The notes under the pieces are model-generated. The model did not search any database, was not told the DNA's origin, and was given only the letters and a program-made list of their open reading frames with translations. Source: Xanthomonas sp. F10 (GTDB lineage: Bacteria > Pseudomonadota > Gammaproteobacteria > Xanthomonadales > Xanthomonadaceae). From it: 64,000 nucleotides of DNA. The stretch covers positions 372,001 through 436,000 of the forward strand of contig NZ_JACHNP010000002.1 in the NCBI RefSeq assembly GCF_014206815.1, read 5' to 3'. A program made the position numbers and the translations under genes. This document shows, piece after piece, positions 29,371 through 54,208 of the stretch (position 1 is the stretch's first letter; each line of letters opens with the position of its first letter).

Positions 29371-29413
29371 CTTCCGGTAAACTTCCGGTTTCCCCGAACC
29401 GGTGCTGTCTGCC

Positions 29414-31354
29414 ATGCGTTCCCCGTTCCTGTTGTTGTCCCTGGCCGCGATGGTCGCGTCCGGGTGTTCCCGTGAAGCGCCTGCGCCCGATGCGGCCGCA
29501 TCTGCCGCCAAGCCGGCGCCCGCCGCGGCCAAGCCGGCCGACCGCAGCCACGACGAGACGTCCTACGCCGAGCCGTCCAAGGTCGTGATCAAGGACCTGG
29601 CGCTGGATCTGAAGCTGGATTTCGACAGCAAGCAGATCGGCGGCACCGCCACCTACACGCTGGACTGGAAGGACAAGAGCGCCAAGCAACTCGTGCTGGA
29701 CACGCGCGACCTGACCATCGAGAAGGTGCAGGCCGACGACGGCAAGGGCCAGCAGGCGCCGCTGCAGTACGCGCTGGCGCCGGCCGACAAGATCTACGGC
29801 AGCAAGCTGACCATCGAGGCGCCGACGCAGCCGCAGACGATCAGCATCACCTACCACACCGCGCCGACCGCCTCGGGCCTGCAGTGGCTGGAGCCGTCGA
29901 TGACCGAGGGCAAGCAACTGCCCTTCATGTTCAGCCAGTCGCAGGCGATCCACGCGCGTTCGTGGGTGCCGTTGCAGGACACGCCGAGCGTGCGCTTCAC
30001 CTACAGCGCGCACGTGGTCTCGCGTCCGGACGTGATGGTGCTGATGAGCGCCGACAACGATCCCAAGGCGGTGCGCAACGGCGACTATCGCTTCAAGATG
30101 CCGCAGCCGATCCCGTCCTACCTGCTGGCGATCGCCGCCGGCGACCTAGTGTTCAAGCCGATCTCGGCGCGCTCGGGCGTGTGGGCCGAGCCGGCGATGG
30201 TCGACAAGGCGGCCAAGGAGTTCGAGGACACCGAGAAGATGATCGTGGCCGCCGAGACGCTGTACGGTCCGTACCGCTGGGGCCGCTACGACATGCTGGT
30301 GCTGCCGCCGTCGTTCCCGTTCGGCGGCATGGAGAATCCGCGCCTGACCTTCGCCACCCCGACGGTGATCGTCGGCGACAAGTCGCTGGTGTCGCTGATC
30401 GCGCACGAGCTGGCGCATAGCTGGTCCGGCAACCTGGTGACCAACGCCAGCTGGAAGGACATCTGGCTCAACGAAGGCTTCACCACCTACGTGCAGGCGC
30501 GCATCACCGAGGCGCTGTACGGCCCGGAAGCGGCGGAGATGGAGCGCGAGATCGACCAGACCGACCTGCTCGCCGAACTGAAGGGCATGAGCCCGGCCGA
30601 CCAGGCGCTGGCGCTGCCGGCGCTGACCGAGCGCGATCCGGACGAGGCGCTGAGCCAGGTCGCCTACGTCAAGGGCGCGTGGTTCCTGCAGTTCCTGGAG
30701 CAGCGCTTCGGTCGCGACATCTTCGATCCGTTCCTGCGTGGCTGGTTCGACGACCACGCGTTCCAGAGCGCCAACACCGACCAGTTCGTCGAGTACCTCA
30801 AGACCCATCTGCTGGCCAAGAAGCCCGACGCGGTGACCGCGCAGGAACTGCATGCGTGGCTGGACGAACCGGGCATCCCGGCGTTCGCGCAGAAGGCGCG
30901 CTCGCGCAACTTCGCCATGGTCGACACCGCGCGCATCGCCTGGACCGGCAGCGGCACGCTGCCGGGCAAGCAGGTGACCGATGCGTGGAGCACCCAGGAG
31001 TGGACGCGCTTCCTCAGCGGCCTGGGCGAGAAGTTGACCCCGGCGCAGCTCAAGCAGCTCGACGACGCCTATCACTTCACCGGCACCGCCAACGGCGAGA
31101 TCGCCATGCGCTGGTATCCGCTGGCGATCCGCAGCGGCTATGTGGACGCGCGCCCGGCCGCCGGCGAGTTCATCGCCCGCGTCGGCCGCCGCAAGCTGAT
31201 CCTGCCGATCTACGCCGAACTGGTGAAGACCCCGGACGGGCTGGCCTTCGCCGAGGAAGTGTTCGCCAAGGCCAAGCCCGGCTACCACCCGATCACCACG
31301 GTGTCGGTGCAGGAGATGCTGGACAAGGCCAAGGCGGGCAGCACCGCGCACTGA
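29414..31354 (+). CDS. M1-family metallo-aminopeptidase lipoprotein
   Basis: A 646-residue zinc aminopeptidase related to leukotriene A4 hydrolase. It has a lipoprotein signal (lipobox VASGC, Cys at about 18) with an Ala/Pro linker. The substrate-binding GGMEN and the zinc motif H331-E332-LA-H335 with Glu354 (WLNEGF) are intact. The C-terminal domain is helical. It would trim peptides at the cell envelope, in line with the two exported S9 peptidases in this window. The ATG at 29414 is preferred to 29402 since it gives the better signal sequence. Confidence 0.93.
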   Translation: MRSPFLLLSLAAMVASGCSREAPAPDAAASAAKPAPAAAKPADRSHDETSYAEPSKVVIKDLALDLKLDFDSKQIGGTATYTLDWKDKSAKQLVLDTRDLTIEKVQADDGKGQQAPLQYALAPADKIYGSKLTIEAPTQPQTISITYHTAPTASGLQWLEPSMTEGKQLPFMFSQSQAIHARSWVPLQDTPSVRFTYSAHVVSRPDVMVLMSADNDPKAVRNGDYRFKMPQPIPSYLLAIAAGDLVFKPISARSGVWAEPAMVDKAAKEFEDTEKMIVAAETLYGPYRWGRYDMLVLPPSFPFGGMENPRLTFATPTVIVGDKSLVSLIAHELAHSWSGNLVTNASWKDIWLNEGFTTYVQARITEALYGPEAAEMEREIDQTDLLAELKGMSPADQALALPALTERDPDEALSQVAYVKGAWFLQFLEQRFGRDIFDPFLRGWFDDHAFQSANTDQFVEYLKTHLLAKKPDAVTAQELHAWLDEPGIPAFAQKARSRNFAMVDTARIAWTGSGTLPGKQVTDAWSTQEWTRFLSGLGEKLTPAQLKQLDDAYHFTGTANGEIAMRWYPLAIRSGYVDARPAAGEFIARVGRRKLILPIYAELVKTPDGLAFAEEVFAKAKPGYHPITTVSVQEMLDKAKAGSTAH

Positions 31355-32155: not shown

Positions 32156-33139
32156 GTGCTGGTGCTGACCATGGCCTGGCTGCTGCTGGCAGGGGTGCTG
32201 CTGGTGGTGGCGGCGCTGATCGGCATGGTGCTGGTGCTGCGCGATCCGTTCCTGCTGGTGCGTTTGGAAAGCCTGCGCCAGCGGCGCGGCAGCGGACTGC
32301 AGCGCCGCCAGGCGCACGTCGCCGGGCATGCCTGGACCTATCTGGTGCGCGCCGCGGCCGATCCCGCTGCGCCGACCCTGCTGCTGGTGCACGGCTTCAC
32401 CGGCAGCAAGGAGAACTGGCTGCCGCTGGCGCGCGCGCTGGGCACCCGCTATCACCTGGTGATCCCGGACCTGCCCGGCTGGGCCGAGAGCCAGCGCATC
32501 GCCGGGCAGGATTACGGCTTCGTTGCGCAGGCCGAGCGCGTGGCCGCGTTCGCGCGGCAGTGCGCGCGCCGTGCGGGCAGCGACTGCGTGCTGCTCGGGC
32601 ATTCGATGGGCGGCGGCATCGCCGCGCTGGCCGCGGCGCGGCATCCGGCGGTATTCGACCGGGTCGGTCTGTTCAACGCCGCCGGCGTCCGCTTCGCCGA
32701 CAACGCCTTCGGCCAGGCGGTGCTGGATGGGCACAATCCGTTCGCGGTGCACGATGCCGCATCGTTGCAGCGCTACATCGACACCGTGTTCCTGCTCGAT
32801 CGCGCCAAGCCGCGCATCCCGCGCTGGGCGGTGCCGGCGGTGGTGGCCTGGCGCCGCCGCGAGGCGGCGTTCGAACAGCAGGTGCTGGCGCGCATCGGCC
32901 GCGGCGAGGAGGCGTTCCTGCCGTTCGAGGAGGCCGCGCACATCCGCCAGCCGGCGCTGCTGCTCAATTGCGTGCAGGATGCGGTGATCGACGCCAGCGC
33001 GCTGGCGCTGTACGCGCAACGCCTGCCGCAGGCGATCCAGGTGCTGCTGGACGGCAGCGGCCACATGTCCATCGTCGAGAAGCCCGCCGAGGTCGCGCAG
33101 GCCATCGACACCCTGATCCAACGAGGAACCCCACGATGA
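32156..33139 (+). CDS. Alpha/beta hydrolase with N-terminal membrane anchor
   Basis: A 327-residue alpha/beta hydrolase. Residues 1-30 are a hydrophobic anchor (AWLLLAGVLLVVAALIGMVL). The oxyanion region is LVHGFTGSKENWLPLARALG, the nucleophile Ser in LLGHSMGGGIAALAA, and the catalytic His in GSGHMSIVEKP. It is similar to membrane-anchored lipase/esterase-type hydrolases of Moraxella/Pseudomonas type. Start is GTG 32156 or ATG 32171. The stop overlaps the next gene start. Confidence 0.88.
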   Translation: MLVLTMAWLLLAGVLLVVAALIGMVLVLRDPFLLVRLESLRQRRGSGLQRRQAHVAGHAWTYLVRAAADPAAPTLLLVHGFTGSKENWLPLARALGTRYHLVIPDLPGWAESQRIAGQDYGFVAQAERVAAFARQCARRAGSDCVLLGHSMGGGIAALAAARHPAVFDRVGLFNAAGVRFADNAFGQAVLDGHNPFAVHDAASLQRYIDTVFLLDRAKPRIPRWAVPAVVAWRRREAAFEQQVLARIGRGEEAFLPFEEAAHIRQPALLLNCVQDAVIDASALALYAQRLPQAIQVLLDGSGHMSIVEKPAEVAQAIDTLIQRGTPR

Positions 33140-33855
33140 AACGCATCCTGCTCGGCGCGCTGTGCGCCGTCGCCCTGGCCGCTTGCGGCGATCACGAGGC
33201 CGAGCGCAAGGCGCAGGCGGCCGCCGAAGCGCAGGCCAAGGCGCAGGCCGCCGACGACCTGGCCAAGCAGTACGACGCCGCGGTGAAGTCGGGCAACTGG
33301 GACCTGGCGCGGATCCACGGCGCGGCGCTGCTGCAGCAGTATCCCGGGTCGGACGCGGCCGAACGCATCCAGCCCGGCTACGCCGAGGTCAAGGCCAAGG
33401 GCGAGGCGGCGCGCGAGCTGCGGCGCATGCAGGCGGCCTGGCAGTACTCGCAGGTGCCGGCCGGCAAGGGCGTGCAGCGCTCGGCGATGCTGTACAGCCG
33501 CGACAAGGTCGACGTGGACGGCAGCGGCCCCAAGCCGGTGCAACTGGTGTTCCGCGACCATCCGGAATGGAAGCGCAGCGCCTACCTGGTGCTGCAGTCC
33601 GGCGATTTCCGCTGCGCCGGCGGCTGCAAGGTGGAACTGAAGGCCGACGACGCGCCGCCGCGCGCGGCCGCGGCCTGGCGGCCCAAGACCGACGAGGCCA
33701 TCGCCATGTTCATCAGCGACGACAAGGCGCTGTGGAAGCTGGCGCGCAAGACCACGGTGCTGCAGATCACCTTCCCGGTGAAGGCCGGCGGCACCCGCAC
33801 CGCGGTCTTCGAGACCGGCGGCCTGGACGGCGCGCAGATGCCGGGCTGGGATTGA
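33136..33855 (+). CDS. Hypothetical lipoprotein
   Basis: A 239-residue lipoprotein (lipobox LAAC, Cys17) with a charged Ala/Glu/Lys-rich helical stretch (about 20-45), a short helical-repeat-like region and a C-terminal beta domain containing FRCAGGCKVELKADD and TAVFETGGLDG. I do not recognise the family. It overlaps the hydrolase stop (ATGA) and ends 5 bases before the HAD phosphatase start, so the three genes form an operon. Confidence 0.78.
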   Translation: MKRILLGALCAVALAACGDHEAERKAQAAAEAQAKAQAADDLAKQYDAAVKSGNWDLARIHGAALLQQYPGSDAAERIQPGYAEVKAKGEAARELRRMQAAWQYSQVPAGKGVQRSAMLYSRDKVDVDGSGPKPVQLVFRDHPEWKRSAYLVLQSGDFRCAGGCKVELKADDAPPRAAAAWRPKTDEAIAMFISDDKALWKLARKTTVLQITFPVKAGGTRTAVFETGGLDGAQMPGWD

Positions 33856-34638: not shown

Positions 34639-34655
34639 TGGCACAGGCGGTGCCA
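34639..34655 (+). promoter_or_regulatory. Candidate sigma-54 promoter of the PQQ-dehydrogenase operon
   Basis: TGGCACAGGCGGTGCCA has the -24 box TGGCAC and a GC exactly ten bases after the GG (GG-N10-GC), the invariant spacing of sigma-54 promoters. The -12 box (GTGCC) is imperfect. It lies about 250 bases before the dehydrogenase ATG and a sigma-54 activator gene is at the other end of the cluster. The sequence is also a palindrome and could instead be a binding site. Confidence 0.4.
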
Positions 34656-34696
34656 CGCGCGCGTGCCGGCACTGCGCCAATCGCGATGCAAGGGCA

Positions 34697-34711
34697 TGGC
34701 ACAAAGTGTCA
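34697..34711. promoter_or_regulatory. Palindromic operator-like site
   Basis: TGGCACAAAGTGTCA: TGGCAC and GTGTCA are near-perfect inverted repeats around AAA. It starts 58 bases after a related TGGCAC palindrome. Plausible regulator-binding site for the dehydrogenase operon. Confidence 0.35.
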
Positions 34712-34907
34712 CGTTCTCGAGACGCCTTCGATCGCGATGCGTGCAGCGCTGGGACAACCACCGACGTTGTGATCCGTCCGTCAGGGGATGTTGCATCGCA
34801 GCGGCGCGATGGCATGGACGTTGCTCGTAGATACCCACGCTTCAGGTTCCGTGGCACACGCCCACCAGGTGCAGCTGTCGCGGCTCTTCAACGAGGGGAG
34901 TAGAACG

Positions 34908-36920
34908 ATGCACAGTCATCCACGTCGTACCCAGGCTTGTACATTGCTCGCACTGGCCACTGCGTTGGCGCTTGCGGGCTGCAAGAAGCAGGAAGAGGCC
35001 GCGGCGCCGGCCGCGCCGGCCGCCGCGCAGCAACCGCCGGCCGCCGCGCCGGCCGCGGTCGCCGATACCGACAGTGAGTTCGCCAGCAATGCCGCCAACC
35101 CCGACAACTGGGGCGGCGTCGGCCGCGATTTCGGCCTGACCCGGCACAGCCCGCTGGCCGAGATCAACCGCGACAACGTCAAGAATCTGAAGATGTCGTG
35201 GGAGATGAAGACCGACGCCACCCGCGGCCACGAAGGCCAGCCGCTGGTGGTGGGCAGCACCATGTACATGGTCAGCGCCTATCCGAACAACGTGTTCGCG
35301 ATCGACCTGTCGCAGGAAGACAACGGCAAGGTGCTGTGGAAGTACACCCCGCAGCAGGACGAGCGCGCGGTGGCGGTGGCCTGCTGCGACACGGTCAACC
35401 GTGGCGCCTCCTACGCCGACGGCAAGGTGGTGTTCGGCAGCCTCAGCGGCGACGTGATCGCGCTCGATGCCAAGACCGGCAAGGAAGTGTGGAAGCAGAA
35501 GCTCGCCTATCCGGAGAAGGGCGAGACCATCACCATGGCCCCGATCATCGCCGACGGCAAGGTCGTGGCCGGCATCAGCGGCAACGAGTTCGGCGTGCGC
35601 GGCCGCGTCGCCGCGTATGCGCTGGCCGACGGCAAGCAGGCCTGGTCCTGCGAAGCCACCGGCACCGACAAGGACATCTGCCTCGGCCCGGACTTCAACA
35701 AGGCCAATCCGCAGCACGGCCAGCTCGGCGACCTCGGCCAGAAGACCTATCCAGACGAAGGCTGGAAGCGCGGCGGCGGCGCGGCCTGGGGCTGGTACAG
35801 CTACGACCCCAAACTCAAGCTGGTCTACTACGGCACCGGCAATCCCGGCCTGTGGAGCCCGTCGTACCGCTGCGGCAAGACCACGCAGAAGGAGTGCGAT
35901 AGCGGCGAGTACGACAACAAGTGGTCGATGACCCTGTTCGCGCGCAAGATCGACACCGGCGAAGCGGTGTGGGGCTACCAGAAGACCCCGTTCGACCAGT
36001 GGGACTACGACGGCATCAACGAGCCGATCCTGGTGGACCTGACCATCGACGGCAAGCAGGTGCCCTCGGTGGTGCAGTTCGATCGCAACGGCTTCGCCTA
36101 TGTGCTCGACCGTCGCGACGGGACCCTGCTGCGCGCCAACAAGTTCGTGCCGGCCAACTGGGCCGAGCGCATCGACATGAAGACCGGGCGCCCGGTCAAG
36201 GTCGCGGCGCATTCGCCGCTGGAGCGCGGCCGCAAGGTCGAGGCGTTCCCCTCGGCGATGGGCGGCAAGGACCAGCAGCCGTGCTCGGTGGATCCGGCCA
36301 ATGCGGCGGTGTTCTTCTGCGGCACCAACAACTGGCACATGGAGCTGGACCCGCAGGAGCGCGGCAACACCATGATGGGCCTGCCCTACGTGTTCGCCAA
36401 CGTGATGATGAAGCCGAACGAGCCCGGCGCGCTGGGCATCGTCAAGGCGTTCGACGTGGTCGAAGGCAAATCCAGGTGGGAGATCAAGGAGAAGTTCCCG
36501 GTGTGGAGCGGCACCCTGGTCACCGACGGCGGACTGGTGTTCTACGGCACGCTGGACGGCTGGTTCCGCGCCGTGGACAAGGACACCGGCAAGAAGCTGT
36601 GGGAGACCAAGTTGCCCTCGGGCATCATCGGCAACCCGATCGCCTACAAGGCCAACGGCCACCAGTACGTGGCGGTGTTCTCGGGCATCGGCGGCTGGAT
36701 CGGCCTGCCGGTCGCCGCCGGCCTGGATCCGGGCGATCCGTACGGCGCGCTGGGGGCCGCGGGCCTGGCCTTCAGCAACGGCTTCGACAAGATCCCGTTG
36801 GGCGGCATGGTGCACACCTTCCGCATCGACGGCGCCGGCAAGACCGTCACCCCCACCACGACCGCCACCGCGGCCGCGGGTGGCGGCAGCGCGGCGGTCG
36901 CCGCCAAGACGGTGCGATGA
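34908..36920 (+). CDS. XoxF-like PQQ-dependent alcohol dehydrogenase, lipoprotein
   Basis: A 670-residue quinoprotein of the methanol dehydrogenase family, an eight-bladed propeller that oxidises primary alcohols in the periplasm. Seen: adjacent Cys159-Cys160 (AVACCDTVNRG), metal ligands Glu227 (GISGNEFGVRG) and Asn312 (GTGNPG), catalytic Asp366 and an extra Asp368 in QWDYDGINEP. That second Asp two residues on is the mark of lanthanide-dependent enzymes; calcium enzymes have Ala there. Unusually it has a lipobox (LALAGC, Cys25) and an Ala/Pro linker (residues 26-55), so it is probably membrane-anchored; XoxF/MxaF are normally soluble. A two-Cys insert (YRCGKTTQKECDSG) follows the Asn. Start ATG 34908 has GAGGGGAG upstream. 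Substrate may be methanol or a longer alcohol. Confidence 0.92.
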   Translation: MHSHPRRTQACTLLALATALALAGCKKQEEAAAPAAPAAAQQPPAAAPAAVADTDSEFASNAANPDNWGGVGRDFGLTRHSPLAEINRDNVKNLKMSWEMKTDATRGHEGQPLVVGSTMYMVSAYPNNVFAIDLSQEDNGKVLWKYTPQQDERAVAVACCDTVNRGASYADGKVVFGSLSGDVIALDAKTGKEVWKQKLAYPEKGETITMAPIIADGKVVAGISGNEFGVRGRVAAYALADGKQAWSCEATGTDKDICLGPDFNKANPQHGQLGDLGQKTYPDEGWKRGGGAAWGWYSYDPKLKLVYYGTGNPGLWSPSYRCGKTTQKECDSGEYDNKWSMTLFARKIDTGEAVWGYQKTPFDQWDYDGINEPILVDLTIDGKQVPSVVQFDRNGFAYVLDRRDGTLLRANKFVPANWAERIDMKTGRPVKVAAHSPLERGRKVEAFPSAMGGKDQQPCSVDPANAAVFFCGTNNWHMELDPQERGNTMMGLPYVFANVMMKPNEPGALGIVKAFDVVEGKSRWEIKEKFPVWSGTLVTDGGLVFYGTLDGWFRAVDKDTGKKLWETKLPSGIIGNPIAYKANGHQYVAVFSGIGGWIGLPVAAGLDPGDPYGALGAAGLAFSNGFDKIPLGGMVHTFRIDGAGKTVTPTTTATAAAGGGSAAVAAKTVR

Positions 36921-38665
36921 GCCGGCGGCGCCGCGTCCAGGAGGCGAGCGGGGGCCGCATGGCGCCCGGCTCGTGGCGCCTGCCTGCGGGCGCGCGCGCC
37001 GTGTTGCTGTTGTGCAGCCTCGGACTCGTCGCCGCAGGCTGCACGCGCGAGCCGTCGTCCGCGGCGGCTCGCGCTTCTGCTGCCCCAGCCGCCACCGCGG
37101 CGCCGGCCTCGGCCGCGCCCGCTGCCACGCTGCCGGCCGATGCGCCGGTGCTGCGGGTCTGCGCCGATCCCGGCAACATGCCGTTGTCCGATCGCGCAGG
37201 CGAGGGGTTCCAGAACAAGATCGCGCAGGTGGTGGCCGCGGAGATGGGCCGGCGCCTGGAGTACGCGTGGCGCAGCTACTACCAGCGCGGCCTGGCGCGC
37301 AGCACGATCAACGCCGGGCGTTGCGACGTGCTGATGGACATGAACAGCGATTTCGAGATGGGCCTGCCCACGCGCCCGCTGTATCGCTCCACCTATGTGC
37401 TGGTCACCCGCAAGGGCCTGGAGCTGCGGCCGGCTTCGCTCGACGATCCGGCGTTGAAAAAACTCAAGGTCGGCGTGTTCCAGAGTTCGCCGGCGCGGCA
37501 GGCGCTGTTCGACCATGGCGTGCAGGGCGAGGTGCAGTACCTGTTCTACGACTCGGCCAGTGCGCCGCAGGAGCATCCCGGCAAGCTCGCCGAGCAGGTC
37601 GCCGCCGGCAAGCTCGATGCCGCCGAATCCTGGGGGCCGGTGGCCGGCTATTACGCCGCGCGCGGCGGCCTCGGCGTGGTGCCGTTGAACGTCATCGACA
37701 ACGAGGTGCTGGAGTATTCGATGGCGTGGGCAGTGTCGCGCAAGAACGCGGCACTGCGCGATGCGCTGAACGCGGCGATGCAGCGCAGCGCCGGCAAGAT
37801 CGACGCGATCCTGCGCGATTACCACGTGCCGCTGGTGACCTGCGCCGATTGCATCGTCGCCGGCGACCTGCGCTCGCACGGCCCCTATCCGGTGCCTGCT
37901 GACCAAGACGACACCCCCAGTGCGCAGGCGTCATCTGACATGCTGGCGCAATTGCAGCTGCGCATCGCCGGTGGCGCCGATCCCGACGAGGAACTGGCGC
38001 ATGCGCTCGACGCCGGCGATGGCGTGCGCGTGGCCTGGCTGCTGCGTCACGGCGCCAGCGCCGACCAGCCCAACCGGCTCGGCGAGCCGCCGCTGCAGCA
38101 GGCGATCCGCAACCAGGCGCCGCTGCTGGTCGGCGAACTGCTGGCCGCCGGTGCCCAGGTCGAACGCCGCGACAGCAATGGCTGGACGCCGCTGATGAAG
38201 GCGGCGTGGTCCAACGACGGCAAGAGCGTCGCGCAGTTGCTGGCGCATCACGCCAAGGTCGAGGCCGTGTCCACCGACGGCTGGACGCCGCTGGACCTGG
38301 CGATCTCCTACGCCGATGCCGACGTGGTGCAGGCGTTGCTCGACGCCGGCGCCAGCGTGCGCCGCGCCAATCCGGCCGGCTTCACCCCGGTGATGTTCGC
38401 GGTGGCGCGCAACGATCCGACGATCCTCGACCTGCTGCTCAAGCGCGGCGCCGAGGCCGACCGTGCGAACCGCGCCGGCGTCACCCCGTTGATGCTCGCC
38501 GCCGCGGCCGGGCGCGAGGACAGCGCCCGGCGCCTGCTCGCCGCCGGTGCCAGCGCCGATGCGCGCGACGCCGACGGCAAGACCCCGGCAGCGCTGGCCC
38601 AGCAACGCGGCAATGCCGAACTCGCCCACCTGTTGACGGAGGCCCAGCACCGCCGCACGCAATGA
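36917..38665 (+). CDS. MoxJ/XoxJ-like binding protein fused to ankyrin repeats
   Basis: A 582-residue lipoprotein (lipobox LVAAGC, Cys42, or Cys28 from the alternative ATG 36959). Residues about 75-330 form a periplasmic solute-binding-like domain of the quinoprotein-dehydrogenase-associated type (VLRVCADPGNMPLSDRAGEG, GRCDVLMDMNSDFEMGLPTR, VTCADCIVAGDL), related to MoxJ/XoxJ, which assist methanol dehydrogenase maturation or activation. From about 345 to the end there are six to seven ankyrin repeats (NGWTPLMKAAWSNDGKS, DGWTPLDLAISY, AGFTPVMFAV, AGVTPLMLAAAAGRE). ATGA overlap with the dehydrogenase shows tight coupling. The fusion suggests a protein-docking role for the complex. Confidence 0.9.
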   Translation: MSRRRRVQEASGGRMAPGSWRLPAGARAVLLLCSLGLVAAGCTREPSSAAARASAAPAATAAPASAAPAATLPADAPVLRVCADPGNMPLSDRAGEGFQNKIAQVVAAEMGRRLEYAWRSYYQRGLARSTINAGRCDVLMDMNSDFEMGLPTRPLYRSTYVLVTRKGLELRPASLDDPALKKLKVGVFQSSPARQALFDHGVQGEVQYLFYDSASAPQEHPGKLAEQVAAGKLDAAESWGPVAGYYAARGGLGVVPLNVIDNEVLEYSMAWAVSRKNAALRDALNAAMQRSAGKIDAILRDYHVPLVTCADCIVAGDLRSHGPYPVPADQDDTPSAQASSDMLAQLQLRIAGGADPDEELAHALDAGDGVRVAWLLRHGASADQPNRLGEPPLQQAIRNQAPLLVGELLAAGAQVERRDSNGWTPLMKAAWSNDGKSVAQLLAHHAKVEAVSTDGWTPLDLAISYADADVVQALLDAGASVRRANPAGFTPVMFAVARNDPTILDLLLKRGAEADRANRAGVTPLMLAAAAGREDSARRLLAAGASADARDADGKTPAALAQQRGNAELAHLLTEAQHRRTQ

Positions 38666-38742
38666 CCGCTTCCTGCCGTCCCGCACACGCCGTTCGCGCG
38701 GCCTGTTCTTCCCATCGTGCACTCCGCAAAGGTGTTGTCCCC

Positions 38743-39327
38743 ATGCGTCCTGCCTCCATCCGTCGTCGCACCGTCTCCCTGCTGTTTCCCGTGTTCCTGT
38801 TCGCTTCGCTCCTGTTGTTGGCCGCCTGCGGCAAGCAGGAGACGCCACCAGCCCCGGCGGCCACCCCCGCACCGGCCGCCCCTGCCGCGGCGCCCGCGTC
38901 TGCGCCTGCCTCCGTCCCGACGGCGGCCGCGCCCGCCGCTGCCGCCGCACCGGCACCGGCACCGGCTGCGGCGGTGACGCCGATTCCGAAGGGACCGCCG
39001 GTCAAGGTCACCCCGGAACTGGTCGCCGAGGGCAAGGCGATCTTCAACTCCGCCGGCTGCACCGCCTGCCACGGCGGCACCGGTGGCGGCGGCATGTGCC
39101 CGCCGCTGACCAACGACATCTGGGTGTACGGCAACGACGACGACACCTTGCGTACCCTGATCATCGAAGGCACCGCCGGCATGGCCGCGCACGGCAAGAC
39201 CCGGATCGGCCACGAGAAGGTGGTGGGGCAGATGCCGCCATTCGGGCCGGTGCTCAAGCCGGACGATACCGAGAAGCTGCTGGCCTTCATCCACTCCATC
39301 AACAAGACCGCGGGCGCCACGCAATGA
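38743..39327 (+). CDS. Lipoprotein cytochrome c (dehydrogenase electron acceptor)
   Basis: A 194-residue monohaem cytochrome c. It has a lipobox (LLLAAC, Cys29), an Ala/Pro-rich linker of about 50 residues and a C-terminal haem domain with Cys106-Cys109-His110 (GCTACHGG) and axial Met164 (GQMPPFGPV). It most likely takes electrons from the PQQ dehydrogenase upstream, in the role of XoxG/cytochrome cL. It overlaps the following gene by ATGA. Confidence 0.92.
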   Translation: MRPASIRRRTVSLLFPVFLFASLLLLAACGKQETPPAPAATPAPAAPAAAPASAPASVPTAAAPAAAAAPAPAPAAAVTPIPKGPPVKVTPELVAEGKAIFNSAGCTACHGGTGGGGMCPPLTNDIWVYGNDDDTLRTLIIEGTAGMAAHGKTRIGHEKVVGQMPPFGPVLKPDDTEKLLAFIHSINKTAGATQ

Positions 39328-40343
39328 GGAACGGGTTGCGCTTGTCCGCCGTGGTCGCGCTGTCGCTGTTCGCCGCGGCCTGCCAGCGCACGCCTGCGCC
39401 GGCGGCCGGCACCGATGCCGCGGCGGCCGCACCGGCGCCTGCGGCCAGCGCGGCGGCGCTGGCCTACGTACCGAACCAGCGCAGCGGCACCATTTCGGTG
39501 ATCGACACCGGCAGCGACCGCGTGGTGCGCACGCTGTCGGCGCAGGGCCAGCTCGGCAAGCGCCTGCAGCAGGTGGTGCCGGGGCCGGCCGGGCATCTGT
39601 ACGTCATCGACGCGCAGGGCCATCGCCTGCTGGAGCTGGATACCGTGCAGGACCGCGTGCTGCGCAGCGTCGACATCGGCGAGAACGCCGAAGGCGTCGC
39701 GGTGGCGCCGGATGGTCGCCAACTCGCGGTATGCGTGGAAGGCCAGAACCAGGTGATGCTGATCGACCCGGCCAGCTTCGCGATCGGCGCGCACATCGCC
39801 ACCCGCGGGCAGGCGCCGGAACACTGCGTCTACACCCCGGACGGCGCGTTGTTGCTGACCAGCAACGAAGGCTCCAACGACCTGGACGTGATCGACGTGC
39901 AGGCCGGCACGTCCACCGGCGTCATCGCCACCAGCGGGCATCCGCGCGGCATGGCGTTCGCGCCCGACGGCAAGACGGTCTACGTGGCGCAGGAGTCGGC
40001 CAACGTGGTCGACGTGATCGATCTGGCGGCGCGCAAGCGCGTGGCCAGCATTCCAGCCGGGCAGCGCACCGCCGGCATCGCCATCGCCCGCGACGGCAGC
40101 CGCGTGTACGCGTCCAACGGCGCCGGCACGGTCAGCGTGATCGACACCGCCGCGCGGCGCACGCTGGCCGAGATCCCGGTCGGGCAGCGGCCGTGGAATC
40201 CGGCGCTGAGCGCGGACGGCAAGGCGCTGTACGTGGCCAACGGCCGGTCCAACAGCGTCAGCGTCATCGACACGGCGGCGATGAAGGAGATCAAGCAGAT
40301 CGGGGTGGGCGAGACGCCATGGGGTGTGGTCGTGGCGCAATGA
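39324..40343 (+). CDS. YVTN-family beta-propeller lipoprotein
   Basis: A 339-residue lipoprotein (lipobox FAAAC, Cys20) with an Ala-rich linker and a propeller of YVTN-type repeats (AYVPNQRSGTISVIDTGSDR, LAVCVEGQNQVMLIDP, VYVAQESANVVDVIDLAARK, LYVANGRSNSVSVIDTAAMK). Such proteins occur in many PQQ-alcohol-dehydrogenase clusters; their function is not settled and may be structural or in cofactor handling. Coupled to the cytochrome by ATGA. Confidence 0.9.
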   Translation: MRNGLRLSAVVALSLFAAACQRTPAPAAGTDAAAAAPAPAASAAALAYVPNQRSGTISVIDTGSDRVVRTLSAQGQLGKRLQQVVPGPAGHLYVIDAQGHRLLELDTVQDRVLRSVDIGENAEGVAVAPDGRQLAVCVEGQNQVMLIDPASFAIGAHIATRGQAPEHCVYTPDGALLLTSNEGSNDLDVIDVQAGTSTGVIATSGHPRGMAFAPDGKTVYVAQESANVVDVIDLAARKRVASIPAGQRTAGIAIARDGSRVYASNGAGTVSVIDTAARRTLAEIPVGQRPWNPALSADGKALYVANGRSNSVSVIDTAAMKEIKQIGVGETPWGVVVAQ

Positions 40344-40396
40344 GGTGAGGCCAGCGACGCCAGCGGGCGCCGCGACGGGGAGGCGGGAGAGCCAGA

Positions 40397-41506
40397 ATGA
40401 AGACGCGAGCCGCGGTCGCTTGGGCGGCGAACCAGCCGCTGGCCATCGAGGAGGTGGATCTGCAGCCGCCCAAGGCCGGCGAAGTGCTGGTGCGGATGGT
40501 CGCCAGCGGCATCTGCCACAGCGACGAGATCGCCCTGTCCGGCGCCGATGCCGAGGCGGCGTTCCCGGTGATCCTGGGCCAGGAAGGCGCCGGCGTGGTC
40601 GAGGAGGTCGGCATCGGCGTGACCAGCGTGCGCCCGGGCGATCACGTGATCCCGCTGTACATGCCCGAGTGCGGCGTGTGCAAGTACTGCCGTTCCAACC
40701 GCACCAACCTGTGCCAGGCGATCCGCAGCAGCCAGGACCGCGGGCTGATGCCCGACGGCAGCAGCCGCTTCTCGCTGCACGGGCGCCCGCTGCTGCACTA
40801 CATGGGCACCAGCACCTTCGCCGAATACACGGTGCTGCCGGAGATCGCGGTGGCCAGGATCCATCCGTCGGCACCGCTGGACAAGGCCTGCCTGCTCGGC
40901 TGCACGGTCACCACCGGCATCGGCGCGGTGCTCAACACCGCGCGGGTGCGACCGGGCGAGAACGTGGCGGTGTTCGGGCTGGGCGGCATCGGCCTGTCGG
41001 TGGTGCAGGGCGCGGTGATGGCGCGCGCCGAACGCATCATCGTGGTCGACATCAACCGCGACAAGTTCCCGCTGGCGCGCGCGCTGGGCGCCACCGACTG
41101 CCTGGACCCGAAGGATTTCGGCGCGCCGGTGCAGCAGGTCATCGTCGACCTCACCGATGGCGGCGCCGACCACAGCTTCGCCTGCGTCGGCGACGTGCGC
41201 GCGATGCGCGCGGCGCTGGAGTGCTGCCACAAGGGCTGGGGCGAAAGCATCATCGTCGGCGTGGCGCCGAGCGCGCAGGAGATCAGCACCCGGCCGCTGC
41301 AACTGGTCACCGGGCGCGCCTGGCGCGGCAGCGCGTTCGGCGGGGTCAAGGGGCGCAGCGAATTGCCGGCCTATGCCGAGCGCTACCTGGCCGGCGAGAT
41401 CCGCATCGACGAACTCATCAGCGAAACCCTGCCGCTGTACCACATCAATCGCGGTTTCGAGACGCTGCGCGCAGGCCGCGGCATCAAATCGATCGTCCTC
41501 TACTGA
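40397..41506 (+). CDS. Class III-type zinc alcohol dehydrogenase (formaldehyde type)
   Basis: A 369-residue cytoplasmic medium-chain dehydrogenase most like S-(hydroxymethyl)glutathione dehydrogenase (FrmA). Structural zinc cysteines are Cys92, 95, 98 and 106; catalytic zinc ligands Cys40 (GICHSD) and Cys169 (LLGCTVTTGIGAV) are present; NAD-binding motif is FGLGGIGLS. The third catalytic ligand is unusual: the normally invariant His of GHEGAG is Gln62 here (GQEGAG, codon CAG). In this operon it would remove aldehyde made by the periplasmic dehydrogenase, but activity with Gln62 is uncertain. Gap from the YVTN gene is 53 bases. Confidence 0.9.
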   Translation: MKTRAAVAWAANQPLAIEEVDLQPPKAGEVLVRMVASGICHSDEIALSGADAEAAFPVILGQEGAGVVEEVGIGVTSVRPGDHVIPLYMPECGVCKYCRSNRTNLCQAIRSSQDRGLMPDGSSRFSLHGRPLLHYMGTSTFAEYTVLPEIAVARIHPSAPLDKACLLGCTVTTGIGAVLNTARVRPGENVAVFGLGGIGLSVVQGAVMARAERIIVVDINRDKFPLARALGATDCLDPKDFGAPVQQVIVDLTDGGADHSFACVGDVRAMRAALECCHKGWGESIIVGVAPSAQEISTRPLQLVTGRAWRGSAFGGVKGRSELPAYAERYLAGEIRIDELISETLPLYHINRGFETLRAGRGIKSIVLY

Positions 41507-41522
41507 GCCTCAAGGAACCGGC

Positions 41523-43919
41523 ATGACCCTGACTCCAGGATGCAGCACCCCGCCGGCGAGCCTGCTCGCGCTGGCCGTCGCCACCGCCATCGGCGTGCTC
41601 GCCGCACCGGCGCGCGCGCAGACCACGGTCAACGCCGACGATGCGCAGATCACCGCGCTGGACCGGGTCGAGGTCACCGCCACGCCGATTCCCGGCACGC
41701 TGATCGATGCCGACCTGCTGCCGTACACCGTGCAGACCGCCAATGCCGACGACATCGCGCGCAGCCAGGCCGGCAACCTCACCGACTTCCTGCTGCGCGA
41801 GATGAACGGCGTGGACACCAACGAGGTGCAGGGCAGTCCGTTCCAGACCGATCTGACCTTCCGCGGCTTCCGCGCCTCGGCGCTGCCCGGCGCCTCGCAG
41901 GGCGTGTCGGTGTACCTGGACGGCGTGCGCATGAACGAGCCGTTCGCCGACATCGTCAGTTGGGACATGATGCCGGAGGCGGCGATCCGCAGCGTGGCGC
42001 TGATGCCGGGATCCAACCCGCTGTTCGGTCCCAACACGCTGGGCGGCGCGCTCGCCTTCACCACCCAGTCCGGCCTGACCGCGCCGGGCCTGCGCACCGA
42101 CCTGTCGGTGGGCAGCGGCGCGCGCAAGCGCCTGGACGCGTCCTACGGCTACGCCGGCCGCGACGGCCTGCATGCCTTCGTCGCGGCCACCGGCTTCGAC
42201 GAGAACGGCTGGCGCGACGCCTCCGCCGGCCGCCTGGGCACCGTGTTCGGCAAGCTCGGGCGGCAGGGCGAGCGTACCGACTGGGACGTGTCGCTGCTGC
42301 ACGGGCGCAGCCGGCTGGTCGGCAACGGCCTGCTGCCCAGCCATCGCTACTCCGACGAGGGCATCGAACCTGGTTTGTATGAAGCCGACCGTGCCGCGGT
42401 CTACACCTCGCCGGACCTGACCCGCAACCGCAACACCTTGCTGACCGGCCAGTTCAACCATCGCTTCGACGAACGCACCGCGCTCCATGTGCTGGCCTAC
42501 TACCGGCAGGGGCGCCGCGACACCGTCAATGGCGACATCAACGACGACTACGAAGACTTCGTCGACGACTGCGCCGATGGCTACGCTGCCGATGGCACGC
42601 CGCTGGATGCGGGTTGCACGGTCGCGCGTGCCGATGCCGACGCGCTGCACAGCGGCGTGCTCAACACCACGCAGATGCGCCAGCATGCCGAGGGCGTGGC
42701 GCTGAATCTCAGCCGCCAGGCCGGCGCGCATGCGCTGAGCATCGGCGCCACCTACGACCGCAACCGCGTGCGCTACCGCCAGTACGCGCAGGACGCGTTC
42801 GTGCAGGACGACCGCTCGGTGGTCGCCGATCCCGACGAGGACCGCGCGTTCTTCTCCGGCGTCGACGGCCGCAGCAGCACCCTGGGCCTGTTCGCCGCCG
42901 ATACCTGGGAGTTGAGCGAGGCCACCCATGTCAGCGGCGCGCTGCGCTGGAACCGCGTCGCCGTCGCCAACACCCTGTCCACCGGCGACGACGGCGTGTT
43001 GCCGCGCGAGCGCTTCGTGTTCGCCAAGGCCAACCCCTCGCTGGGCATCACCCAGCGCCTGGGCGGCGGCGTCACCGCGTTCGCCTCGGCCTCGCAGAAC
43101 AGCCGCGCGCCGACCGCGATCGAACTCGGCTGCGCCGACCCGGAGCAGCCGTGCCGGTTGCCGACCGGGCTGCAGGCCGATCCGCGCCTGGAGCAGATCG
43201 TCTCGCGCACCTACGAACTCGGCCTGCGCTGGAACCCGTCGCCGGCGCAGGCGCTGAACGCCTCGCTGTACCGCGCCGACAACCGCGACGACATCCTGTT
43301 CCTGCGCGCGCCCAATACCCAGCAGGGCTATTTCGACAACGTCGGCCGCACCCGCTACCAGGGCGCCGACCTCAGCTACCGCGGCAGCCGCGGCGCGCTG
43401 CGCTGGTTCGCCGGCTACAGCTACCTGGACGCCACCTACCGCAGCGTCGGCGAACTGCTCTCGGGCGAACGCACCGTGGCGCTGCGCCCGGGCACGCGCA
43501 TCGCCGGGCTGCCGCGCAACACGCTGAAGCTGGGCGTGGAATGGCAGGCGCTGGCGCAGCTGGCGCTGGGCGCGGACCTGCGCGCGGTGTCGCGGCGCGT
43601 GGCCAGCGGCAACGAGGACGGGCTGGTCGAGGATCCCGAGGACGGCGAGGCGCCCGCGCGTCACGACCTGTCCACCGGCGGCTACGCCTTGCTCGACCTG
43701 CACGGCACCTGGCAACTCGCCGACGGGCTGTCGCTGTACCTGCGGATCAACAACGTGTTCGATCGCCGCTACGAGACCTATGCGGCGATCGCCGAGGACC
43801 TGTTCCCGGGCGGCGCCTTGGCGCGCCCACAGGACGCTGCGGTGGAGGACGGCCCCTCGCGCTTCGTCGCGCCTGGCGCCCCGCGTCAGTACCAGGTCGG
43901 CCTGCGCTGGCGTTTCTAG
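41523..43919 (+). CDS. TonB-dependent outer-membrane receptor
   Basis: A 798-residue receptor with signal peptide (ending APARAQ), a plug domain (VEVTATPIPGTLIDADLLPY, MNGVDTNEVQGSPFQTDLTF, YLDGVRMNEPF, LFGPNTLGGALAFTTQSG) and a 22-strand barrel ending in VGLRWRF. It starts 16 bases after the dehydrogenase stop, so it belongs to this operon. Several predicted loops are very acidic, notably NGDINDDYEDFVDDCADGY at about residues 335-353, followed by a second Cys. By analogy with lanthanide-responsive receptors of methylotrophs it may import a lanthanide chelate, though siderophore, PQQ or another ligand cannot be excluded. Confidence 0.92.
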   Translation: MTLTPGCSTPPASLLALAVATAIGVLAAPARAQTTVNADDAQITALDRVEVTATPIPGTLIDADLLPYTVQTANADDIARSQAGNLTDFLLREMNGVDTNEVQGSPFQTDLTFRGFRASALPGASQGVSVYLDGVRMNEPFADIVSWDMMPEAAIRSVALMPGSNPLFGPNTLGGALAFTTQSGLTAPGLRTDLSVGSGARKRLDASYGYAGRDGLHAFVAATGFDENGWRDASAGRLGTVFGKLGRQGERTDWDVSLLHGRSRLVGNGLLPSHRYSDEGIEPGLYEADRAAVYTSPDLTRNRNTLLTGQFNHRFDERTALHVLAYYRQGRRDTVNGDINDDYEDFVDDCADGYAADGTPLDAGCTVARADADALHSGVLNTTQMRQHAEGVALNLSRQAGAHALSIGATYDRNRVRYRQYAQDAFVQDDRSVVADPDEDRAFFSGVDGRSSTLGLFAADTWELSEATHVSGALRWNRVAVANTLSTGDDGVLPRERFVFAKANPSLGITQRLGGGVTAFASASQNSRAPTAIELGCADPEQPCRLPTGLQADPRLEQIVSRTYELGLRWNPSPAQALNASLYRADNRDDILFLRAPNTQQGYFDNVGRTRYQGADLSYRGSRGALRWFAGYSYLDATYRSVGELLSGERTVALRPGTRIAGLPRNTLKLGVEWQALAQLALGADLRAVSRRVASGNEDGLVEDPEDGEAPARHDLSTGGYALLDLHGTWQLADGLSLYLRINNVFDRRYETYAAIAEDLFPGGALARPQDAAVEDGPSRFVAPGAPRQYQVGLRWRF

Positions 43920-44011
43920 CGGGCGCGGTGTGGCGGGGCGCTGCGTGGGGCTCATCGGCTTCGTATCCTCCGCCTTGTCCACCGGCCGGGAGCTGGTCGG
44001 CTCCGGCGGCG

Positions 44012-44317
44012 GTCGCGGCTGAAGCCGCTCCTACAGAAGCGCTGCGCCGGTGACGAAGCGCGACCCGTTAGGAGCGGCTTCAGCCGCGACCTAGCAGCCG
44101 TGGAGCATTCGGCTTTGGCAGCAGTCGGGACTGACGTCCCTCCCACAGGGTGTGTCGCCCAATCGGCTTGCCTGCCGTTGTCGTAGGAGCGGCTTCAGCC
44201 GCGACCGTGAGGCCGAAAAGCTTCTGGCTTCGACAACAGCCGGGACTGAAGTTTCCGCCACAGGTTGTGCGGTCTCACCGACTCGCCGGCTGGTGTGGGA
44301 GCGACTTCAGCCGCGAC
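44012..44317. repeat. Cluster of six REP-like half-units
   Basis: Units at 44012-44034, 44067-44090, 44124-44146, 44183-44205, 44239-44261 and 44295-44317 alternate in orientation and mix the GTAG/GCGGC and GTGG/GGGAC variants. This fills most of the 545-base gap between the convergent TonB receptor and sigma-54 activator genes and may act as a two-way transcription end. Confidence 0.88.
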
Positions 44318-44464
44318 ATCGAAGCCAGACATCCTCCAGCCGCCTCAGCGGTCGGGATGCGAATACCGGCAGCACTCACGTCGCTACCGAATGGCAGGTC
44401 GCGACAGACGAGCCTGCATTCGCGACGCCCAGTAAGGTCCGCAAGGGTGCGACACCGCCTCGAC

Positions 44465-46447
44465 TCACACCGTCGCCAACCCATGCTTGCGCAACTTGCG
44501 ATACAGGGTGTTGCGGCTGATGCCCAGCGCATCGGCGGTGCGGCTGACGTTCCAGCGGTGGCGCTCGAGTTGCTGCTGCAGCACGCTGCGCTCGGCGCTG
44601 TCCAGGGCGACGCGGCCGGGCACGCCGTCGGCGGCGTGCGCATCGTCGCCGAGCAGGCACGGCCCGCTGTCGGCGTCGACGATCTCCTGCGGCAGGTTGG
44701 GGATGCGGATGACGCCGTCGGCGCACAGCACGGCGGCGGTGCGCAGCACGTTGCGCAGCTGCCGCAGGTTGCCGGGCCAGGCATAGCTGAGCAGCTTGTG
44801 CAGGGCGTCCTCGCTGATGCGCACCGGTTGCTCGCCGCTCTCCTCGCGCAACAGGGTGCGGATCAGTTCGGCCTTGTCGCTGCGCTCGCGCAGTGGCGGC
44901 AGGTGCAGCACCACGCCGTTGAGCCGGTAGTACAAATCCTCGCGGAAGCCACCGGTGCCGACCATCTGCGCCAGGTCGCGGTGGCTGGCGCTGATCACGT
45001 GCAGTTCCAGCGGCATTGCGCGGTCGCTGCCCAGCGGCGTCACGCTCTGTTCCTCCAGCACGCGCAGCAGGCGCGTCTGCAAGGGCAGCGGCATGTCGCC
45101 GATCTCGTCCAGGAACAAGGTGCCGCCGCTGGCCTGCAGCAGCTTGCCGTGGCGTCCTTCGCGCGCGGCATCGGTGAAGGCGCCGCGCGCGTAGCCGAAC
45201 AGTTCGCTCTCGATCAGCGCTTCGGGAATCGCCGCGCAGTTCACCGCCACGAACGGCCGGTCGGCCCAGGGCGAGCCGCGGTGCACCGCCTTGGCGAATT
45301 CCTCCTTGCCGGTGCCGGTGGCGCCGCACAGCAGGATCGACACGCGGTGCTTGGCCAGCTTCAGCGCATTGTCCAGGTTGTGCAGCATGCGCGGATCGGA
45401 ACCGACATGGTCGTTGGCGCGGCTGGCCTGGCTGTCCTCGCCGGCGGCGCGGGCGCGGCCCGCGGTACTGCGCGCGCGCGGCGGCTGCGCCAGTGCGAAG
45501 AAGCGGCGGCCGTGGCAGGCGCAGCGGATCGACCACAGGGTGCTGGCGTCGTTGCGTGCGCGCTGCTCCAGCGTATCGAAATCCAACTGCATCACCTGGG
45601 CGATGTCGTGCCCGACCAGCGCGGTGCGATCGGGCTTGCCCAGCTGTTCCAGCGTCGCCTCGTTGACCGCGAGCACGCGGCCGTCGCCGCCGACCGCGAT
45701 CAGCGCCTCGTGCAGCAGCCCGGCGAACTCCGGGCGGCTGTGGAAGCGCAGGATCCACGCATGCCGGTACTGCTCCAGGAAGTAGGCGCGGGCGATCTGC
45801 GCCGCCGACATGCGCACCAGCGCGCCGGTATGGCATTGCACCAGCTTGGTGTCGCGCGCGTCGGGCGTGGAGGCATCCAGCACCCCCAGCAGCTGGCCTT
45901 GCGGATCCAGGATCGGCGCGCCGCTGCACGACAGCGGCAGGTGCCGCTCCAGGTAGTGCTCGCCCCGGTGCACGCTCAGCGCGCTGCATTCCACCGCACA
46001 GGTGCCGATGCCGTTGGTGCCCTGGTAGCGTTCGGCCCAGCTGGCGCCGCAGAACAGCCCGGTCTCGCGGAACGCGCGCAGCAGCGCCGGATCCTGCACG
46101 CTGTGCAGCACGGTGGCCTCGGTGTCGGCGAACACCACCGCGTAGCTGCCGCCGGCGATCTGTTCGTAGAGATTCTCCATCTCCACCTTGGCGATGCGCA
46201 GCAGCGCCTCCAGCCGCTGCTGGCGCTCGCGCAGCTGGCCATTGTCGTGGACCATCGGCGAGGGATGGGTGTCCGGGTCCAGGCCGTAGTCGTCGAGGCA
46301 GCGCCGCCAGGAGCGCGCCAGGGCAGGCGGCAACGGATCGATCTGGCGGAACCGGCGCATCCGCGCCAGCAAGGCGGACTCGGCCTCGGCGGCCGATGGC
46401 GCCAAGGCCGCGGCCTGCGGGAGGTTGGCTACAGTCAACTCCGACAC
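44465..46447 (-). CDS. AcoR-type sigma-54-dependent activator
   Basis: A 660-residue enhancer-binding protein. An N-terminal GAF-type sensor (about 85-220, GTNGIGTCAVE), a PAS-like region (235-310), the AAA+ domain with Walker A GATGTGKE (375-382) and Walker B LFLDEI (444-449), and a C-terminal Fis-type HTH (NVSRTADALGISRNTLYRKL). The sigma-54 contact loop reads GAFTDA (422-427) rather than GAFTGA. GTG 46447 is taken as start because GAGGGG lies 6 bases upstream and upstream codons are repeat-derived. AcoR-like activators often control alcohol and acetoin oxidation; here it converges on the PQQ-dehydrogenase operon and is its likely regulator. Confidence 0.9.
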   Translation of the reverse strand: MSELTVANLPQAAALAPSAAEAESALLARMRRFRQIDPLPPALARSWRRCLDDYGLDPDTHPSPMVHDNGQLRERQQRLEALLRIAKVEMENLYEQIAGGSYAVVFADTEATVLHSVQDPALLRAFRETGLFCGASWAERYQGTNGIGTCAVECSALSVHRGEHYLERHLPLSCSGAPILDPQGQLLGVLDASTPDARDTKLVQCHTGALVRMSAAQIARAYFLEQYRHAWILRFHSRPEFAGLLHEALIAVGGDGRVLAVNEATLEQLGKPDRTALVGHDIAQVMQLDFDTLEQRARNDASTLWSIRCACHGRRFFALAQPPRARSTAGRARAAGEDSQASRANDHVGSDPRMLHNLDNALKLAKHRVSILLCGATGTGKEEFAKAVHRGSPWADRPFVAVNCAAIPEALIESELFGYARGAFTDAAREGRHGKLLQASGGTLFLDEIGDMPLPLQTRLLRVLEEQSVTPLGSDRAMPLELHVISASHRDLAQMVGTGGFREDLYYRLNGVVLHLPPLRERSDKAELIRTLLREESGEQPVRISEDALHKLLSYAWPGNLRQLRNVLRTAAVLCADGVIRIPNLPQEIVDADSGPCLLGDDAHAADGVPGRVALDSAERSVLQQQLERHRWNVSRTADALGISRNTLYRKLRKHGLATV

Positions 46448-46531
46448 GTGGCGCCCCTCGATCCGACCCCGGATCAGGCCGCCAGTGACGCACAATCGGG
46501 TGCCGCGCTCAAACCGCAGTGCAGCAAAAGC

Positions 46532-46707
46532 GGGGATTGGGGAATCGGGATTGGGGATTGGGGATTGGGGATTGGTAAGAGCGGCTACCTGGTGCCGATC
46601 CTGTTCCGCTCTGCGGCCAGAACGAAAAAACCGCGCGGTCGCGCGGTTCTTCGTGGCTTCAAGACGCCGGATTCCGCTTTGGCGAAACCCCAATCCCGAT
46701 TCCCGGC
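46532..46707. repeat. GGGATT-type inverted repeat element
   Basis: Left arm 46532-46575 with at least four units (GGGGATTGGGGAATCGGGAT, then GGGGATTG repeated) followed by GTAAGAGCGG; right arm 46684-46707 (CGAAACCCCAATCCCGATTC). The core contains the terminator of the adjacent kinase gene. Confidence 0.85.
46625..46648 (-). terminator. Intrinsic terminator of the PfkB kinase gene
   Basis: On the minus strand AACCGCGCGACCGCGCGG is followed by TTTTTT, a classical stem and T-run about 95 bases after the kinase stop. Confidence 0.85.
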
Positions 46708-53885: not shown

Positions 53886-54208
53886 GCCAGCGGTACGGCG
53901 GCGGCGCGCGCTGGCTTAACCGCACCCTCGAGGCAGGTTGCCGCATGATTGCGGCGCGTGTCGCGCTTGCGCACAATGCGCGCCGATGCCACGTGACGCG
54001 CGCCGCTCCCCCCGGCCCACACGCGTGCAGGAACTTCCGGGTAGGCAGGTGCGACCCCGCGCATCCATCCCAGCCCACATCGCCGAGGCACCCACGCAGC
54101 GCATCCGCCGATCCGGGCCCCGGCCCGTCCGTCCGCGTCGTCCGCCGCTCCCTCGCCGTTCCCGTGGTTGTCCCGATGCTCGGCGCTGGCCGAGATGGAT
54201 GCGTGTCG
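53886..54208. other. Intergenic region with no recognised feature
   Basis: About 320 bases between rodA and the VirJ-like gene. It contains no convincing coding frame or repeat. It presumably carries the promoter of the VirJ-GH28 pair. Confidence 0.4.

Follow-up and report, generated by a model that had tools for sequence, protein, structure and literature searches.

A block of seven genes in Xanthomonas sp. F10 is best explained as a sigma-54-controlled, lanthanide-dependent methanol-oxidation module whose electron-transfer parts have moved onto a membrane, a reading that we hold with reasonable confidence. The block lies in a stretch of 64,000 nucleotides (positions 372,001 to 436,000 of contig NZ_JACHNP010000002.1, assembly GCF_014206815.1; hereafter the window, whose own numbering is used). 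A sequence-only reading of this DNA had described it, and all seven of its open reading frames (ORFs) were confirmed at the coordinates given there. On the forward strand it encodes a XoxF-type pyrroloquinoline quinone (PQQ) dehydrogenase (34908–36920), a XoxJ–ankyrin fusion (36917–38665), a cytochrome c (38743–39327), a YVTN beta-propeller protein (39324–40343), a class III alcohol dehydrogenase (40397–41506) and a TonB-dependent outer-membrane receptor (41508–43919); a sigma-54-dependent activator (44465–46447) is encoded on the reverse strand. Given the 4-base overlaps between xoxF and xoxJ and between cytC and the YVTN gene, the arrangement is operon-like. The operon is real, conserved, probably functional and of a known kind, and what appears to be new is a jointly lipid-anchored variant under sigma-54 control. 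The sequence itself shows the gene content and conservation of the block, the metal ligands and clade of the dehydrogenase, the promoter motif and the lipoboxes.

The dehydrogenase scored 599 bits against TIGR03075, the curated PQQ methanol/ethanol family (cut-off 480), and its best PDB relative was 7o6z (906 bits), followed by 4mae (XoxF2, 633 bits) and 4tqo (519 bits). It was aligned with 114 genome sequences and three PDB chains (118 sequences in all, after duplicates and hits covering fewer than 450 query residues had been dropped). The four metal-ligand columns hold E, N, D and D, all present in the window protein, and we take Glu172, Asn256 and Asp299 (numbering of Methylacidiphilum fumariolicum SolV) to be three of these ligands. 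The remaining column, that of the lanthanide Asp (SolV Asp301, which binds the metal; PMC5606694), holds Asp in the window protein and Ala in 4tqo. In a FastTree phylogeny, all 83 sequences at least 54% identical form one group with 7o6z, separate from XoxF2 and other PQQ dehydrogenases (84 of 118 tips, support 0.974); Xanthomonadaceae-type sequences, 35 in number, cluster together (support 0.817). The latter also stayed together (SH-aLRT 100) in a quick IQ-TREE run of 27 rows which, being rooted on 4mae, tests only branching within the XoxF1 group; the order of Coralloluteibacterium, Lysobacter/Pseudoxanthomonas and Xanthomonas could not be settled in it. With the lanthanide Asp present and a place beside 7o6z in the XoxF tree, the 34908–36920 protein falls inside the methanol-dehydrogenase-like clades, and its description as a XoxF-like PQQ dehydrogenase holds.

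The 7o6z protein, from Methylacidimicrobium thermophilum AP8, is described as the first XoxF1-type structure and contains Nd (PMC8546591). It is the closest solved relative and shares the clade and the four metal ligands with the window protein, which differs from it in having a lipobox and an Ala/Pro linker, Asn at the Asp172 column (7o6z numbering) and Ala at the column mapped to Cys240. The hosts differ as well, that of 7o6z being a methanotroph whereas the window genus is plant-associated. The membrane glucose/quinate PQQ dehydrogenases, of which TIGR03074 relatives occur in the genome, are likewise PQQ propeller enzymes but belong to another family and are held by membrane helices, unlike the predicted lipid anchor described here. 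PedH/PedE are PQQ propeller enzymes of another family too.

The four exported proteins XoxF, XoxJ–ankyrin, cytochrome c and propeller are predicted lipoproteins, conserved as such in Xanthomonas, and their lipobox cysteines are those already named in the sequence-only reading (Cys25, Cys42, Cys29 and Cys20, respectively). Lipoproteins were called by a PROSITE-like lipobox, a hydrophobic core and hydrophilic residues after the Cys, with Pro permitted at −3, a rule tightened after a looser first regular expression and its hits had been seen. This rule predicts the full set of four lipoproteins for 24 of the 25 complete loci of Xanthomonadaceae type (22 if the two loci whose XoxF has Pro at −3 are left aside), the exception being Coralloluteibacterium, and for none of 24 complete loci elsewhere; loci in which at least one of the four genes is missing (3 and 26, respectively) are outside these counts. 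Single lipoboxes were flagged four times in the 50 loci outside Xanthomonadaceae (L093, L095, L100 and L110), never all four together. Other flags raised there by the looser expression were dropped, their Cys sitting inside the hydrophobic stretch ahead of an AxA site. The linkers, long in the cytochrome, measure 24–89 residues and consist on average of half or more Ala/Pro, and Asp at +2 occurred in none of the lipoprotein sequences checked (n = 24–27 per protein in both cases). Predicted anchoring of all four exported proteins is thus the speciality of Xanthomonadaceae, whereas the exported proteins of XoxF1 clusters elsewhere read as soluble and periplasmic.

Upstream of the block, TGGCATGGACGTTGC (34810–34824, forward strand), 83 bases upstream of the start codon of xoxF, is the sole exact match to the −24/−12 promoter pattern TGGCAYG-N4-TTGC (here TGGCATG-N4-TTGC) on either strand of the window. 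A search tolerating one mismatch, for which chance predicts 4.3 matches, again found only this site. Together with the adjacent activator gene (PF00158 AAA+ and PF02954 Fis-type helix-turn-helix domains), this element is what a putative sigma-54-controlled operon would be expected to carry, and it is likely that the 44465–46447 protein is the regulator. Its GTG start codon was chosen by resemblance to relatives, and the Pfam scan used a longer reading (44468–46543). When 24 Xanthomonas-type relatives were aligned, 15 shared the strict pattern TGGCA-N6-TTGC and the other 9 had a variant −12. Among 70 usable XoxF1 upstream regions the strict pattern was found in 25, vs 5 of 3500 mononucleotide shuffles. 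This pattern is the window's own site, fixed before the relatives were scanned. A middle pattern matched 34 of the 70 loci and 13 of 3500 shuffles (Fisher p 0.008), and a widened one, set after the relatives had been seen, matched 42 of the 70 vs 5 of 3500, among them all 17 Xanthomonadaceae-type loci that have an activator gene in range. The strict site is commoner where an activator gene is in range (19 of 35 loci vs 6 of 35 without; Fisher p 0.0024), also outside Xanthomonadaceae (8 of 18 vs 2 of 24; p 0.010). Relatives of the activator are encoded at 17 of the 28 Xanthomonadaceae-type loci and at 21 of the 50 XoxF1 loci from elsewhere. In a Candidatus Methylomirabilis locus (L096), two −24/−12-like sites precede xoxF1, with no activator gene scored over the stretch covered.

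The second protein of the block combines a XoxJ/MxaJ-like domain (residues ~78–310; TIGR03871, 255 bits vs cut-off 212, with a matching fold) with about seven ankyrin repeats (~340–582). A comparable fusion is the XoxGJ protein of SolV (PMC5623727), in which the XoxJ domain is likewise joined to another part, there a cytochrome, here ankyrin repeats. The propeller protein has TIGR02276 repeats and scored 173 bits against TIGR03866, under its cut-off of 287. For the TonB receptor (PF00593, PF07715), phmmer found no PDB chain at E ≤ 0.01; our guess is that its ligand is a lanthanide or a metallophore.

The class III alcohol dehydrogenase is, by its score against the TIGR02818 equivalog (611 bits vs cut-off 544), a glutathione-dependent formaldehyde dehydrogenase. 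The sequence-only reading had listed it within an alcohol-oxidation system; it would instead act on the product and adds no alcohol oxidation, and its presence points to methanol as the substrate. A second copy, 62% identical, lies with fghA at C2:509520-512180, and the formaldehyde dehydrogenases beside XoxF1 in other lineages are closer to this second copy than to the one in the operon in nearly every case listed. Cofactor supply appears to be covered, PQQ synthesis genes being present: pqqC passes its curated cut-off, and the ORFs beside it (C2, about 908–912 kb) look by eye like pqqA, pqqB, pqqD and pqqE, judging from known features of these genes. Besides the window XoxF, no PQQ alcohol dehydrogenase in the genome passed the TIGR03075 cut-off; of five weaker hits, scanned as fragments, two matched the membrane glucose/quinate family best and three had no family at the threshold used.

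We infer from these data a pathway in which lipidation, the identity of the membrane, complex formation, metal use, inducer, substrate and electron path are all the conditional part. Periplasmic XoxF1, with PQQ and a lanthanide, would oxidize methanol to formaldehyde or further, the XoxJ–ankyrin protein would aid its maturation or docking, and electrons would pass through the dedicated cytochrome c to the respiratory chain. Formaldehyde in the cytoplasm would be converted by the operon's formaldehyde dehydrogenase and the S-formylglutathione hydrolase encoded by fghA elsewhere in the genome to formate, where oxidation may end, given that no formate dehydrogenase alpha subunit in the genome passed the TIGR01591 cut-off (the best match was FdhF/YdeP-like). 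In Xanthomonadaceae, lipid anchors with flexible linkers on the XoxF, XoxJ–ankyrin, cytochrome and propeller proteins would keep the electron-transfer parts on one membrane surface. More tentatively, and with somewhat less than even confidence, we propose a tethered array in which enzyme, XoxJ–ankyrin scaffold, cytochrome and propeller would all be held by lipid anchors with long flexible linkers on one membrane face. It would have arisen when four soluble proteins were converted together, and would be lanthanide-dependent and induced through sigma-54 by plant methanol, in a genus not known as methylotrophic. Much the same weight might be given to an anchored system on the inner rather than the outer membrane, feeding cytochrome oxidase directly, which departs from the favoured explanation in place only.

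Several observations weigh against the favoured reading, the lack of a formate dehydrogenase alpha subunit over its cut-off among them. Asp172, termed diagnostic of XoxF1 (PMC8546591), is Asn in all 35 Xanthomonadaceae-type sequences, the window's included, and 46 of the 48 other XoxF1 relatives have the Asp; by our trees the Xanthomonadaceae-type protein is a divergent branch within XoxF1, and by this residue it is not XoxF1. The mono-haem class I cytochrome c (CTACH; analysed as 38749–39324, two residues shorter than the gene call) scored 30 bits vs a cut-off of 148 with the MoxG/cytochrome cL model, and it is not a curated XoxG/MoxG. Fold comparison gave it no family name, and no XoxG row stood among the matches listed, which does not in itself exclude XoxG. 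Within the same XoxF group, Coralloluteibacterium has a soluble-looking XoxF, XoxJ and cytochrome, and only its YVTN protein qualifies as a lipoprotein. Among Xanthomonadaceae-type loci alone, the strict sigma-54 site does not differ clearly with the activator (11 of 17 vs 4 of 11, p 0.25), and all these Fisher tests count kin loci as independent, with shared ancestry inflating their p-values. The gene is also missing from 4 of the 20 genomes examined in the genus, and one metagenome study reports Xanthomonadales genomes without methylotrophy functions (PMC7589939).

The anchors could instead be a by-product of a lineage-wide preference for Ala/Pro-linker lipoproteins, with no role in electron transfer. 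A crude count over 464 kb of the window genome put lipoproteins at 17 of 53 exported proteins (a stringent gene caller gave 247 genes there and missed the window's xoxJ, cytC and YVTN genes), and with lipoproteins this frequent, four adjacent ones are unremarkable by themselves. Two further window ORFs begin with a lipobox: 29402–31354, which by eye also has an HExxH motif and an Ala/Pro linker, and 33136–33855, which has no Pfam family. What matters is the conservation of the anchors and the contrast with soluble-looking relatives, not four in a row. The four-lipobox pattern of the complete Xanthomonadaceae-type loci speaks against a by-product, as does a comparison of 0.88 Mb of the window genome with 1.2 Mb from another genome of the order, whose XoxF1 (62% identical) looks soluble. 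Among 98 reciprocal-best pairs, the only three lipoprotein/soluble differences were the operon's xoxF, xoxJ and YVTN proteins, but only 31 of the 98 had any signal call, many of these membrane or plainly cytoplasmic proteins; the real denominator is small and the comparison weak. No pair was called lipoprotein on both sides (one appears so by eye), and the cytochrome was not recovered. On balance, we consider a by-product rather unlikely. We find it more unlikely still that the cassette serves another alcohol or aldehyde, such as a multi-carbon plant volatile or formaldehyde, in detoxification or sensing, with methanol incidental. The lack of a known methylotrophic habit in Xanthomonas, the absence of a formate dehydrogenase alpha subunit over its cut-off and the separate formaldehyde dehydrogenase with fghA would fit such a role; the branching of XoxF beside the methanol dehydrogenase 7o6z, and the finding that 22 of 50 distant XoxF1 loci include a gene for formaldehyde dehydrogenase, argue for methanol.

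As to where methanol might come from, the sequence-only reading had pointed to a GH28 enzyme. A GH28 domain is indeed present in the window, at residues 698–930, in the C-terminal part of a 1012-residue open frame (53938–56976). GH28 enzymes cut the pectin backbone and do not de-esterify pectin or release methanol, and we therefore rejected GH28 as the explanation; the link is weak. A pectinesterase is encoded elsewhere in the genome (77 bits vs cut-off 27).

The occurrence of XoxF1 in Xanthomonadaceae is already published. One study reads the xoxF1 gene in this family as pointing to methylotrophic potential and names the family among the taxa labelled by 13C-methanol (PMC9258066). The main text of the article cited in that study for Xanthomonas xoxF1 (PMC3927605) contains none of the terms methanol, PQQ, quinoprotein and alcohol dehydrogenase. 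The XoxF1 protein of Dokdonella was detected in a metaproteome (PMC8999231), and methanotroph XoxF1 has been associated with acidic or hot places (PMC12482762). In open-access literature, mostly titles and the beginnings of abstracts and with most subscription journals outside its scope, no anchored XoxF, XoxJ–ankyrin fusion or sigma-54 control of xoxF was found.

The combination of XoxF1, XoxJ–ankyrin and cytochrome is widespread in Proteobacteria and NC10, which rules out the cluster as a peculiarity of Xanthomonas; neither the fusion nor the bulk of the gene set is specific to that genus. XoxF1 with XoxJ–ankyrin was found in Hydrocarboniphaga, Solimonas, Rudaea, Hyphomicrobium, Methylophilus, Methylomirabilis and others. 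The 50 loci outside Xanthomonadaceae include a cytochrome gene in 43, a YVTN gene in 26, a formaldehyde dehydrogenase gene in 22 (vs 23 of 28 Xanthomonadaceae-type loci) and a sigma-54 activator gene in 21, and a relative of the TonB receptor in 4 (vs 23 of 28). XoxF matches were found in 16 of 20 genomes of the genus (E ≤ 1e-50), 17 of 149 in a sample of the family (E ≤ 1e-100; 13 of them at least 76% identical), 11 of 150 in the order (E ≤ 1e-150) and 27 of 276 in the class (E ≤ 1e-100). Among the loci compared, the nearest named record was Xanthomonas sp. NCPPB 1128 (L064), with XoxJ 96% and XoxF 98% identical.

Should the favoured explanation hold, leaf bacteria of a genus with crop pathogens among its members would gain energy from plant methanol by means of rare-earth metals, and lanthanide biology would enter plant–microbe interaction. 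The existence of anchored and soluble-looking forms of the operon in related lineages makes the effect of tethering on periplasmic electron transfer directly testable. The XoxJ–ankyrin fusion and sigma-54 control, both recurrent across XoxF1 clusters, offer handles on a little-studied XoxF clade.

Some members of the genus carry interrupted genes, which may reflect decay or assembly error: xoxF is split over two frames in X. euvesicatoria ATCC 11633 (L053), its N-terminus is out of frame in X. cissicola CCUG 18839 (L058), and xoxJ is in two pieces in X. phaseoli ATCC 49119 (L063). A second XoxF-like gene, 45% identical and with an internal TAG, lies at G161:C1:3085055-3086773 in one genome of the genus. 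Between the TonB receptor and activator genes of the window (44010–44326), an element of 23–29 bases, GGAGCGGCTTCAGCCGCGAC, occurs in direct and inverted copies; three copies in direct order are spaced 112–115 bases apart, and the arrangement resembles a repetitive extragenic palindromic (REP)-type repeat.

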